Under the pieces are notes generated by a model. The model made no database searches and was not told where the DNA came from. It saw only the letters and a list, made by a program, of their open reading frames with translations. A stretch of 64,000 nucleotides of DNA, from the NCBI GenBank assembly GCA_021234155.1, contig JAJEKV010000092.1, positions 2,180,561 to 2,244,560 of the forward strand, given 5' to 3'. This DNA is from Isoetes taiwanensis. Its lineage: Eukaryota > Streptophyta > Lycopodiopsida > Isoetales > Isoetaceae. Below, one piece after another: positions 29,001 through 36,868 of this stretch; positions within the stretch are counted from its first letter, which is position 1, and each line of letters opens with the position of its first letter. The position numbers were made by a program, and so were the translations under genes.

Positions 29001-30954
29001 CATGGCAAAATCCAAGAAATCCCACCTCACAGAATCAAAGGCTCTTTTAAAATCCAGCTTGAGAAGAATACAGTTTTGATGCGAGATTTTGTTCCAGTGC
29101 AGACCTTCCATAGCAGCCACATAATTATCCAAGATATATCTATTTGGAAGGAAAGCTGATTGATTTTGACTAATATTCCTTTGAAGGAAGCTTTTGATTC
29201 TCAGGGCAATGATCTTAGCACAGAGCTTGTAAGTGGTGTTAGTGAGAGAGATGGGTCTCCAGTCCTGAAACTTGGAAGGATGATCAGCTTTAGGAATCAA
29301 AGAGATAAAGCCACTGGAAATTGAAGGATGCAAATGATTATCATTCCAGAAGGCATGGACAAGGGAGATAACATCAGTTTTGAGTATATCCCAGAACTTA
29401 ATGTAAAATTCTGCAGGAAGGCCATCTGGCCCAGGAGATTTGCCTTTGCTGAAGGAATTTAGAATCTCATAAATCTCATTGTGAGATGGAATGGCAGTAA
29501 TAGCATCATCCATGATTTCACTAGGCTCAAGAAGAATAGAATCCACAGTGGAGATAAACTCATTGGCTTCTGAGGCCATGTTGGGGTCAATTGGCTTGTC
29601 ACTAAAGATATCCATATATCTGCTCTTGAAGAAATTTGCAATTTCAGAATGAGTACTATAATTGTTACCCTGATCATCAAAAGTCTCAGCAATGGAGTTT
29701 CTAAGAACCCTACTCTTGGCAACCCTGAAGAAGAATTTTGAGGAGCCAGAGTCCATGTCATTAGTATACTTAATTTTACATCTAATAGCTGAGCCCTTAG
29801 CTTCCATCTCCTCAATATTCTTAATTCTTCTCTCTAAAATTTCCTCACCTACATGAAGATTATAATTAGAAGGATCATTCTGAATAAGAGACCTAATATC
29901 CTTCATATACACTAGGAGCTGGTTTTTTTCCTTACTTCTCTCCTCCTTGATAATTTTAGACCAGTTTTTAATCCACCCTTTGATTTGTTTGATCTTGGAG
30001 TAAAAACATTTCATAGAGGGCATTTGATTACCAGCAACCACATTTGAATTATTGGAGAGAGTCTCATAAAAGGATCTGAATTGAGAGCAAAATTTCTCAT
30101 TCTCCAGCAGAGAGAAATTGAACTTGTAAGGCGTGCTTCCTTCTCTTTTAATGTTGATGACATGAGAGGTATGAAGGAACTGAGGCTGATGATCAGAAAT
30201 GGAAGTTCCTTCATCACTTGTAACATAGCTATTGTCCCAGAAGGCTGCAGAAGGGTTGGAGACATAAAATCTGTCCAGAGTGCAGAAAACTCTTGCTTTA
30301 TCCTTTTGTTTGTTCGACCAAGTGTAGGTGGCAGTAGAGGAGGGGATATAGATCAGATTATTATCAGCAATAAGAGTATCCCAATTCTCCCTTTCAGTTC
30401 TGGACATATTGATTTTATTTCCCAGTTTAAGATCCCAAGATGGAGTAAACAAGATTGCAAATTAAACGGGAGTGTTGCAGCACTCCCGTTTCAAAGATTC
30501 CCTTTAAAAACACACCATGGTCTTAAAATTGGCCTTTTTTGGATAAACTTGAAAATTTCAGAAGGTTCAATTTTTTTTCCCCCTCATTTTGGCCCCTCAT
30601 TAAGTGACAAGTTTGTTTTTTGCAAAGAAACACCCTTAAAAATGGCAAAATGTAGACATGTATACATAATCTCTGAAAGTGAGATATTAAAAGCATCAAA
30701 ATAGAGAAGAAAAAATAATTATTATTTCTTTAAAAAATTTCAGTACATTAATTTGGCACCCTCCAAATTCGGTGCATATTGAACAATACGCTTATCAGAC
30801 ATTGCAACTGGGTATCTGTCCTAAGTCTCCACGTTTAGCTGTTCCATCAAACATGTTTGACATGTTCTGACGATCTATTGGCTGAATAAAAAACAAGAAA
30901 ATAATCAAGTAAACAAATGAACACTAGGGCACAAAAAACAAAAAATGTAAAAAG

Positions 30955-31138
30955 AAAAGTGTATTCTGGAATACACTTTTGCTTTTCTAGAAAAGACACA
31001 TGTATTCCAGAATACACTTTGGATTTTCAAAGAAAGCAAAAGTGTATTCCGGAATACACTTTTAATTTCCTAAGAAAGCAAATGCGTATTCTGGAATACA
31101 CCTTTGCTTTCTAAGAAATCAAATATGTATTCTGGAAC
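30955..31138 (+). repeat. Left subterminal palindromic repeat cluster
   Basis: Five units with core GTATTCYRGAATAC at about 30960, 31001, 31044, 31087 and 31127 (the last is a half-site), spaced about 42 bases. Fuller units read AGTGTATTCCGGAATACACT, itself a palindrome. About 510 bases from the transposon's left end. Similar clusters near transposon ends commonly bind transposase; that role is inferred. Confidence 0.85.
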
Positions 31139-32503
31139 AACATGTTGCCTATATGTTAAGGTTTAGAGCACCCCACAACTGTTAAAATTGTCATCCTGCA
31201 TTCTGAAATCTTTGAAGAATGGATGGAGACTTGATGTGAATCTGAGATATTCAAAAGTGTGAACCTGAAGAAAATGTAGTAGTGGCCATTGACAAACAAT
31301 CATGATGCAAACGAAGTATGATTTGTCCATCATCTGTGGCCTAGCCTAGTGGCCATTGACAAGCAATCAATCACCAAGGTAGTATTTCTTCAATACATAT
31401 TAAAGCCTTCAACCAAGGATGAAGCTTCCTTCATTTTGCTTCGATGATTAATATCTTTGATGCCATTGACCGAGCTTTTGCTTCGGGTAATTGTTGTTAT
31501 TTTAAGGATTTAACTGGGTAAATTAAGTAATGATAGAAAACCCAATTTTACATGGTAGTTGTCAATTAAGCAATGACAGGAAACACAGTTTTATATGGTA
31601 GTTGAAGTGTACATCTCACATGATCATTTACAAGTAGTCTCCACTAAGTAGTAGATTAATATTTTGCAAGGAGAAAAAATAATATTGTCAGTCACGAGTT
31701 TTATCTAGTTTGAAAGATCCCAAATTCTCAAGCCACGATCGACATGTGTTTTTCCTGCAGATTGAGAATATGGTATCGACTTAAGAGTGTGGTGTGTACA
31801 TGTCATAGAAGGCCCCAAATACTCAGCATCTGCCTATTAAGGTCCCCAAAAGATCCTTTGGGGTTAGTTCAATGGTGTGGGGTTTTTGCTATATTTTTTT
31901 TTTTTTTTTTTTTTGGGTTATGGCACTTCTTTGGCAAACATATGGGCGTGACATGCAATGCCAATTGGGACCCGAAGTTATGGGTTGCTTTTGTTTGGCG
32001 AACAAGAGGCTTTCTCGGACGCAGACTGGTGGCTGCAAGCTGAAGATAGATAAATTCTTTGCTACTATTGCTTCAATTTAAAGATTTAACTTCTTTAACT
32101 TTAATGTGAACAATTGTTAAAGTATTCTAGAGCCATGATATATTTCATTAGCAAACCTGCTGGATGTTCTCTAATTGCACCCAGCATCATTCATGGAAAA
32201 TGGGAGTAATAAAAACCTGAGAATGCACACGTTTTAGAGAGATCTCAAAGAGTACTAACTAGTTGCAACGTCCCTCCAACTATCAATGATAAATTAAGCC
32301 CTGTTACAAAAGCAAGCTTCAATGCACAGCAAACAGCCATCTTGCACTATTATTTAAAAGCCACACAGCATCAATATATCTATGAAATATGCAGAAAAGC
32401 CAAACATCTAGATCTAATCTCTATACTAACAAATGGGGTTGCAAGGCCAAAGATATCCAAAAAGCTTTACTGACGTAGAATCAATCAAGTAATCTGATCT
32501 CAG

Positions 32504-32614
32504 CTAATCTAAGCAAATCACCATGTCTTCTGCTGGTTCAACTGCTGGACACTTTGAATAACCATGTAGAGTACGTTCAACCCTCTGTGAATATCCTGTA
32601 ACAAGATTCTTAAG
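32504..32614 (-). pseudogene. Unidentified terminal-exon-like segment inside the transposon
   Basis: On the minus strand a (CT)n tract ends in TCTGGTGCAG, a good acceptor, and is followed by 36 open codons ([20 protein letters not shown], then CPAVEPAEDMVICLD) and a stop at 32504-32506. It looks like the last exon of a captured gene, but I do not recognise the protein. The alternative frame (ILLQDIHRGLNVLYMVIQSV) is also open to near the same point, so the frame is uncertain. Confidence 0.35.
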
Positions 32615-32625
32615 CTGCACCAGAA

Positions 32626-35109: not shown

Positions 35110-35495
35110 AAATTTCGAAGTCATGAAGCTGCTGCACAATGAGCAGTGTCCCTGTATCTGCAAACTCAAATTTGGTAGCACCTGCTTCGTACCATATTGG
35201 CAAGTCTTTTGATATTGTACTGCGTAGAAGCTGTCACAGAATTTCATGGGAGTCACTTACATCAGTAAATAAAATTCCAGCTACCCCAGCCATTGCAAAG
35301 CAAGCATGGACAAGTTCTGCCTGAGATACCGTCTCAAGCTCTTCGGTTCCTTCCCAAGCTCTAAAGGATCAAATCCAAAGTCACTAGCAAGACTGCAATT
35401 CAAAAACATTGTGAAAATAAGCATATACATGCTTTTAATTCTAATCCGTCAAGGTACTTTGGTGGCGACAAGCCAGACAACCAAGTGTTTCACAA
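35110..35495 (-). pseudogene. Captured PSI antenna (LHCA) gene fragment
   Basis: From 35495 down: WLSGLSPPKYLDG (to about 35446, donor changed to GATTAG); then exon 35392-35261 after ATTGCAG with SLASDFGFDPLELGKEPKSL, a small frameshift, and QAELVHACFAMAGVAGILFT before GTAAGT. The next piece, 35230-35115, has DLPIWYEAGATKFEFADTGT and LLIVQQLH. This is the N-terminal loop, first chlorophyll-binding helix (E..H motif) and helix B-C loop of Lhca proteins; WYEAGA.KF.FA is typical of the Lhca5-like group. The frameshift, changed donor, a 30-base intron and loss of helices show it is dead. Same strand as, and directly upstream of, the LRR fragment. Confidence 0.82.
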
Positions 35496-35889
35496 GCAAG
35501 ACCACAATCCGGTATCCCTAGCCCCCACAAATCAAAGAAAGGAAGTCCTTTATTATTTAGAACCATCTTCCTGTATCCCAAAGAAACAAATAAATAATTT
35601 ATTGTATCTTCCTATGGTCATTCAAATAATTGAAAAAAAAAATGTGAAGTCATGGAAAATGTCGAAAAGCCTATTTAATGTTGCTTTGTTTATCATTTTG
35701 TTATTCTAGAATAGGAAATGTATTTCCACATAAAAAAACAAAATAAAATCGCACATAAAAAAAATAAAATTGCAAGGTCATTCAAATTAACTGAAACAGA
35801 GAAAATTGCAAGGTCATTGAAAATGCCAAAAACCCAAAAAACCTGGAAAATTGCAAGATCACTGTTGAGTCTCAAAAACTTGTACAGCA

Positions 35890-36032
35890 AAAGTGTATTC
35901 TGGAATACACTTTGAATTCGAGCAAGAACAAAAATGTATTCTGGAATACACTTTTATTTTTAAGAAAAGTAAAAGTGTATTCCGGAATACACATTTGTTA
36001 TCCTCGAATAGCAAAAGTATATTTTGAATATA
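35890..36032 (+). repeat. Right subterminal palindromic repeat cluster
   Basis: The same palindrome as at 30955-31138 occurs at about 35894, 35936 and 35976, with a decayed unit near 36018, again about 42 bases apart. The cluster begins about 510 bases from the right end, mirroring the left cluster. Confidence 0.85.
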
Positions 36033-36868
36033 ATTTTGGTACTTTAAAATATTATATCATCAAAAAATGACTAATTGTAACCTAAAAGTACCTCTTCTGG
36101 AATACAATCCAAGCTAACAAAATGTTGTGTAGGATGTACACTTAAATTAGTGGTTTTCTCTAAAAACACACTCCTGGTAAATTCTAACTGTTAGGAAAAG
36201 TGTCACTTTGACATAGTCAATTTTCTCTTTGCACAAAAAAATGAGTGATTTTGGGGGGGTCAAAATGCAATTTTATGACCAAAATAAATTTTTTACTTCA
36301 TTTTAGCTCCTTTTTTGGAAAAAAAAAGGGAATCTTTGAGGAATATTCCTTTTGCTCCCGTTTCAATGATTTGCTCCCGTTTAATACGCAACCTTGTTAG
36401 TATTGTTGAAGTCACCAGCAATAATCCAATTTTCAAGAGATTGAGAATCCAGCCAGCAATTCATTTCAGCCCAAATTGGTTCTCTATCTTTGGGTGACGT
36501 AGGAGCATAGACATTGATAATGCCAAATCTGGAGTTAGAAACCGAGCAAATCATGGCTTGCCAGGCTCTTGAGGGACTGTTATAAAAGGAAGAGTGATTG
36601 ATATCTTTCTTCCAGATAATGGCCATTCCACCACTTGCTCCAGATGAGCTGATCCAAATAGAGGTAGAATTAGGATAAATCCACTCCCCTAAGTTACTAC
36701 ATTCAAAGGAGGGAAATTTAAGTTCTTGAAGGATAATGATGTCTGCATTATATTGCCTAATTTGAGCAATGGCTCTTCTCCTTTTTAGAGGGCCTTTGAT
36801 TCCTCTGAGATTCCAAGAAAGAATCTTCATATCAATGAGAGAAGAGAGAGATAATAAGAAAGAAGGAT

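Follow-up and report, generated by a model that had tools for sequence, protein, structure and literature searches.

What is the 5951-bp insertion that interrupts a retrotransposon gene in Isoetes taiwanensis, and what moves it, given that no transposase was found in it? The insertion occupies positions 30448 to 36398 (plus strand) of the window, by which we mean the whole 64,000-nucleotide stretch analysed here (assembly GCA_021234155.1, contig JAJEKV010000092.1, positions 2,180,561 to 2,244,560). It is a cut-and-paste transposon with terminal inverted repeats (TIRs), non-autonomous and inserted not long ago, and belongs to the Pack-type, the kind that captures genes. Very probably, it is a copy mobilised in trans by longer elements of the same family that encode a DUF7869 transposase and an N6/N4 DNA methyltransferase. 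The preliminary description of this DNA proposed a TIR family with 4-bp duplications, and that family is real and multi-copy; the description missed the pieces of a leucine-rich repeat (LRR) receptor kinase gene and of Lhca5 that the element has captured.

The boundaries are supported on several grounds. Positions 30448-30472 and 36374-36398 form a 25-bp inverted repeat that is 88% complementary, and the inward alignment of the first 100 bp of the two ends scores 58.7, against a mean of 25.4 (standard deviation 4.8, maximum 42.3) in 300 single-base shuffles; the alignment exceeds all 300 shuffles at lengths of 60, 100, 150, 250 and 400. AGTA stands on both flanks (30444-30447 and 36399-36402), and among duplication lengths of 2 to 11 only 4 fits. 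The host is a long interspersed nuclear element (LINE) on the minus strand, with the downstream part of its ORF2 at 27060-30447 (RVT_1, zf-RVT) and the upstream part at 36403-36875 (Exo_endo_phos). Compared with LINE proteins, the two parts correspond to the endonuclease and the reverse transcriptase, in the correct order, and joining the flanks gives a single open frame through the endonuclease region and the GDFN motif, so the imperfect inverted ends, the AGTA duplication and the restored ORF2 frame put forward earlier all hold. We scanned the window for 25-bp TIRs that pair at 21 or more positions and have a 4-bp duplication, and obtained 15 hits against 0 in 15 first-order shuffles; two of these hits lie in palindrome clusters and 11 within an inverted repeat at about 47.3-47.7 kb, which we count as artefacts, and the remaining two are the present element and a short element at 52005-52286.

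The two termini are not mirror images of each other. At the L-type terminus (30448-30491, plus strand) the TIR AACAAGATTGC runs to a CGGGAG motif followed by its inverted form CTCCCG, a hairpin arrangement, while at the R-type terminus (36354-36398, minus strand) the TIR AACAAGGTTGC runs to CGGGAG followed by a second, direct CGGGAG. Consensus sequences were built from 17 copies for the left end (L014 and L019 were dropped because of nested insertions) and from 19 for the right, and the terminal 60 bases agree with them at a mean of 98-99%.

These ends are dispersed throughout the genome (1.658 Gb in 1110 contigs). When the genome was searched with the left 100 bases, 1394 places came up as first-look candidates and 40 of them were scored; six of those 40, the window copy included, are identical over all 100 bases. 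The 25-base end pattern AACAAGRTTGCNNATTAAACGGGAG has 787 exact matches in the genome, against 0 for the reversed control. Of the 39 scored places other than the window copy, the 20 best were retrieved, each with no more than 10 kb, and 18 of them show both ends in opposite orientation, the copies being 3.3 to 9.6 kb long. Seventeen of these complete copies have a perfect 4-bp duplication, the remaining one (L019) being off by one base in four; L012 and L017 show one end only within the stretch, the right side of L017 being damaged, and were left out of the count. Five additional copies drawn from listed end pairs all have perfect 4-bp duplications. Together with the window copy and the three longer elements described below, the overall figure is 26 of 27 complete copies. 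The duplicated bases vary freely (AGTA, TTTT, CTTA, TCCT, GTTG and TAGC, among others), as do the interiors of the copies.

The copies are young: over the left 660 bases the window copy is 98.9% identical to its nearest relative, and over the right 600 bases the most similar two copies of the set reach 99.7%. The most distant right ends are only about 59-62% alike, so subfamilies exist. Neither the exact end pattern nor the palindrome pattern described below matched the viral contigs, and the end pattern matched none of the prokaryote genomes, in keeping with a family of plants. A literature text search with the letters of the ends and palindromes returned, among the matches listed, none on transposons by title.

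The preliminary description expected that, if the family was real, many copies would share ends and 4-base duplications around variable interiors and at least one longer copy would carry a transposase gene. A longer copy with a transposase-like gene was also found. At C87, a 19,580-bp copy has both ends and TATT on each side, and nested within it lies a second family member of 12,729 bp with TCAC on each side. Both follow one plan: the L end, methyltransferase frames pointing towards it, palindromes 2.0-2.2 kb from L, a further open reading frame (ORF) region, a DUF7869 gene pointing towards R, and the R end. This further ORF region, the third conserved one, lies beside the palindromes in both elements (L035 6025-7200, minus strand, and the matching part of L036). 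A Pfam scan of the linked gene pieces gave N6_N4_Mtase at E 2.3e-9, above its cut-off, and DUF7869 at E 2.2e-4, below its cut-off; neither a ParB-like nor an rve domain was found in these pieces. The open frames around the methyltransferase match reach at most 338 amino acids. A search with one 165-amino-acid methyltransferase frame found a single relative, of 136 amino acids, with no Pfam domain.

The pairing of the two genes recurs across the genome. Among the best 150 places scored for each gene (out of 2836 candidates for the DUF7869 piece and 2142 for that of the methyltransferase), the two genes come within 8 kb of each other in 26 cases, where 0.22 would be expected for random places; these pairs are spaced 5.6-6.8 kb apart and all 26 are divergent. 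Extending the distance to 30 kb gives 40 pairs, 37 of them divergent. An R end follows the DUF7869 gene in seven of eight loci, one of the eight (L037) being the C87 copy already described; wherever a last open frame can be read, the R end comes about 0.3-0.7 kb after it. On the other side, at C97, C50, C856 and C87, a stretch of 525-535 bases separates the methyltransferase match from the L end beyond it. From this spacing an L end was predicted near 3865227 in C1032 and was found at 3865220, 7 bp away. The AAGC that follows this L end is also the four bases preceding the R end, and the element so delimited measures 7,714 bp and holds both genes, its DUF7869 frame being discontinuous in L044.

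The short copies look like deletion derivatives of such longer elements, although the sequence comparison would also allow the opposite order: window offsets 1-309 and 369-528 match places in C87 that are 1.4 kb apart, with the methyltransferase in between, so that the gene splits parts of the L end that adjoin in short copies. No transposase was found in the scanned frames of the window copy, as first reported, nor in 94 frames (of 165) scanned with Pfam from 10 loci of other copies, and 24 short copies compared directly with DUF7869 gave no match. L012 was considered as an autonomous copy and rejected: between about 1900 and 9968 its interior frames resemble, by eye, reverse transcriptase/RNase H and tyrosine recombinase, perhaps a nested DIRS-like element. 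The Pfam scan of L012 frames named no tyrosine-recombinase (DIRS-like) domain.

DUF7869 is a domain of unknown function whose predicted fold matches DDE transposases and integrases. Its relatives are predicted to have the RNase H-like order and conserve D39, D119 and D161, which we infer to be the three catalytic acids. It occurs in a liverwort, a fern, a charophyte, bivalves, echinoderms and lancelets, and one fern relative, P0198, is annotated with rve plus DUF7869. For P0121, sequence comparison with the PDB yielded nothing convincing (best E 0.43). The fold comparison leaves families missing from it as further candidates, and the term DUF7869 does not appear among the literature matches listed, which does not establish its absence in print. 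Judging from the predicted fold, DUF7869 is probably the catalytic RNase H-like (DDD) transposase of the family.

The interior of the window copy holds captured pieces of host genes on the minus strand. Two LRR exons, of 72 nt (34748-34819) and 69 nt (34608-34676), are each flanked by AG and GT, with a 71-bp intron before the second; read together they match plant LRR receptor kinases in the PDB and Pfam LRR_1. Nearby lie two exon pieces of an Lhca5-like chlorophyll a/b-binding protein gene. The upstream piece (35237-35368), frameshifted on its 5' side, has a best PDB match at E 1.2e-6, and two of its top three matches bear the name Lhca5 or photosystem I protein 5; the next exon (35111-35233) matches the same best chain at E 1.3e-9, followed by protein 5 and Lhca5. 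Of 59 window frames scanned (77 were listed), one matches Chloroa_b-bind at E 1.2e-4, the matching frame not being specified. The intron between the two pieces is reduced to a 30-bp GT..AG stub, which suggests that genomic DNA was captured and later suffered an internal deletion. The LRR and Lhca5 stretches are not unique to this copy; they match 8-11 of the 20 other copies in the comparison, which means that the captured DNA has been amplified. The segment at approximately 32698-34197 (in 250-bp bins), by comparison, is matched by at most one of the 20. Other copies carry further host pieces, with Cupin_5 (three frames), PPR and PUF. Within the 32698-34197 region, 32978-33081 holds two identical 47-bp units, their starts 57 bp apart, whose translation is rich in Gly and Tyr and may come from an RNA-binding protein gene; two long (AG)n microsatellites lie within the element at about 32625-32731 and 34293-34452.

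Clusters of the palindrome GTATTCYRGAATAC were reported earlier at about 510 bases from each end and about 42 bases apart. The spacing stands, at 41-42 bp, and so does the distance on the left, where four exact and one decayed palindrome (30961-31140) include starts at 513, 554, 596 and 638 bases from the element's end; on the right, the three exact palindromes (35895-35990) lie closer, at 408, 449 and 490 bases. The window holds seven exact palindromes, every one within the element, and 10 with at most two mismatches, against 0.94 expected. Because they are retained in short copies and also stand beside the genes of the longer elements, a regulator, or the transposase itself, may bind them.

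A model of how the family moves can be drawn from these observations. An autonomous element would comprise the L end, an N6/N4 methyltransferase gene reading towards it, the palindrome array, a further ORF, a DUF7869 gene reading towards R, and the R end. DUF7869 probably brings an L end of the hairpin type together with an R end of the direct-repeat type, and would cut both and join them to target strands 4 bp apart, filling of the 4-base stagger then yielding the duplication. Short copies lack both genes, have gained pieces of host genes and have been amplified, with the transposase probably supplied in trans by the longer elements. That a partner moves the window copy in trans had already been suggested; we now infer such movement from the longer relatives, in which ends of this type enclose a transposase-like gene. 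The methyltransferase could perhaps mark element DNA against host silencing or serve in transposase control. Gap repair is a possible route of gene capture. Alternatively, neighbouring copies may fuse, a route put forward for Pack-CACTA (PMC13317346).

Several observations weigh against this model. No copy was seen intact from end to end, the frames of C87 and of L044 (C1032) being broken in places. The ends of the window copy are only about 72-76% identical to those of the C87 elements, so the latter are probably not its own closest autonomous partner. One of the eight DUF7869 loci (L038) lacks an R end within the 3.5 kb examined, where one was expected, and among the 40 gene pairs within 30 kb three are arranged otherwise than divergently. 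The best structural Z score of DUF7869, 9.1, only slightly exceeds the values of 7-8 described by the tool as common. Finally, loci were chosen by end score or gene pairing, not randomly, and the paired genes come from the best-scoring part of the candidates.

It is improbable that the transposase of another superfamily moves the family, DUF7869 and the methyltransferase being passengers. Accessory genes can ride in large transposons, and C87 is a nest of insertions. Passengers would hardly account for 26 divergent pairs spaced 5.6-6.8 kb apart, for an R end shortly beyond DUF7869 at seven of eight loci, or for the DDE-like predicted fold, and no other transposase domain was found among the frames scanned in these copies. 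Still less credible is a known plant superfamily (MULE, hAT, CACTA, PIF or Tc1) with a shortened duplication. Subterminal repeats occur in CACTA elements. Gene capture, too, is described for these superfamilies, in their Pack-TYPE elements (PMC8903248). However, MULEs make duplications of 7-12 bp and hAT elements of 8 bp (PMC10741241), and CACTA elements have CACTA/CACTG termini and a 3-bp duplication (PMC10741241; 5 nt in PMC8903248), whereas here the ends start AACAAG and the duplications, varied in sequence, are exactly 4 bp in 26 of 27 copies; in Pfam, the linked gene finds DUF7869 and no model that belongs to any of those superfamilies. The clean empty site in the LINE and the hundreds of dispersed end matches refute the idea of a chance inverted repeat or immobile rearrangement.

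If DUF7869 elements move as we propose, where do they belong? Pack-TYPE elements are non-autonomous TIR elements carrying captured host gene pieces (PMC8903248, PMC13317346), and the window copy likewise has TIRs with a duplication, captured host fragments and no transposase found, much like a Pack-MULE. Published Pack-TYPE elements belong to MULE, CACTA, hAT, PIF and Mariner (PMC8903248); the Isoetes taiwanensis family differs in its 4-bp duplications and DUF7869 partner. Ginger elements also make 4-bp duplications (PMC2836005; 4-6 bp in PMC10741241), but they have TGTNR ends and a Gypsy-type integrase as transposase (PMC2836005), unlike the AACAAG ends and rve-free linked gene pieces found here. 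For assignment to a superfamily such as Sola, a Repbase rule asks that the first 11 terminal bases match those of a known member (PMC4455052).

Sola, and Sola1 in particular, is the home we consider fairly likely, by likeness of description and not of protein sequence, given the 4-bp duplication, the DDD-like candidate transposase and the accessory methyltransferase. The same likeness to published elements makes the earlier suggestion of a previously undescribed family less certain. Sola elements have a DDD transposase and a 4-bp duplication and are described as uncommon in flowering plants (PMC10741241); Physcomitrella is listed with Sola1 (PMC9033089). In Sola1-1_Ec32 of Ectocarpus, the strand that does not encode the transposase holds a gene whose product has a DNA methyltransferase domain of N4-mC or N6-mA type (PMC12477816), the arrangement that we see with DUF7869. 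Sola1-1_Ec32 differs in its size, 21.5 kb against 7.7 kb for the C1032 element, and in its 1104-amino-acid ParB/methyltransferase protein (PMC12477816), against our shorter frames without a ParB-like domain. We regard with more reserve, as a minority possibility, the idea that DUF7869 is the transposase of a superfamily distinct from Sola, whose plant members would be two-gene elements with a methyltransferase that marks or protects element DNA and so enables very large swarms of gene-capturing derivatives to spread.

These elements tie the widespread, uncharacterised DUF7869 to a transposon with known ends and duplication length and propose a function for it, and they add elements with 4-bp duplications to the transposons known to capture plant host genes. 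They also offer a testable case of a plant transposon encoding its own bacterial-type DNA methyltransferase, in which N4-methylcytosine (4mC) or N6-methyladenine (6mA) could be sought directly. If Sola-type, they would be a plant branch that is abundant, captures genes and has a methyltransferase linked to it; if not, DUF7869 elements would form a superfamily of their own.

Elsewhere in the window, the 282-bp element at 52005-52286 resembles a miniature inverted-repeat transposable element, with ends GGGTCAAAGCATRGAGRTGGGGGAC and the 4-bp duplication AATA, and belongs to a different family. The inverted repeat at 47272-47725 has 136-bp arms that are 96% identical, with outer part AACAATCAACAC and no clear target duplication seen. 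Direct repeats of about 770 bp, 84% identical and 10.8 kb apart (41740-42500 and 52550-53317), are possibly long terminal repeats. A 492-amino-acid open frame at 60787-62262 matches DUF659 (E 8e-44) and is probably a hAT-type transposase gene.

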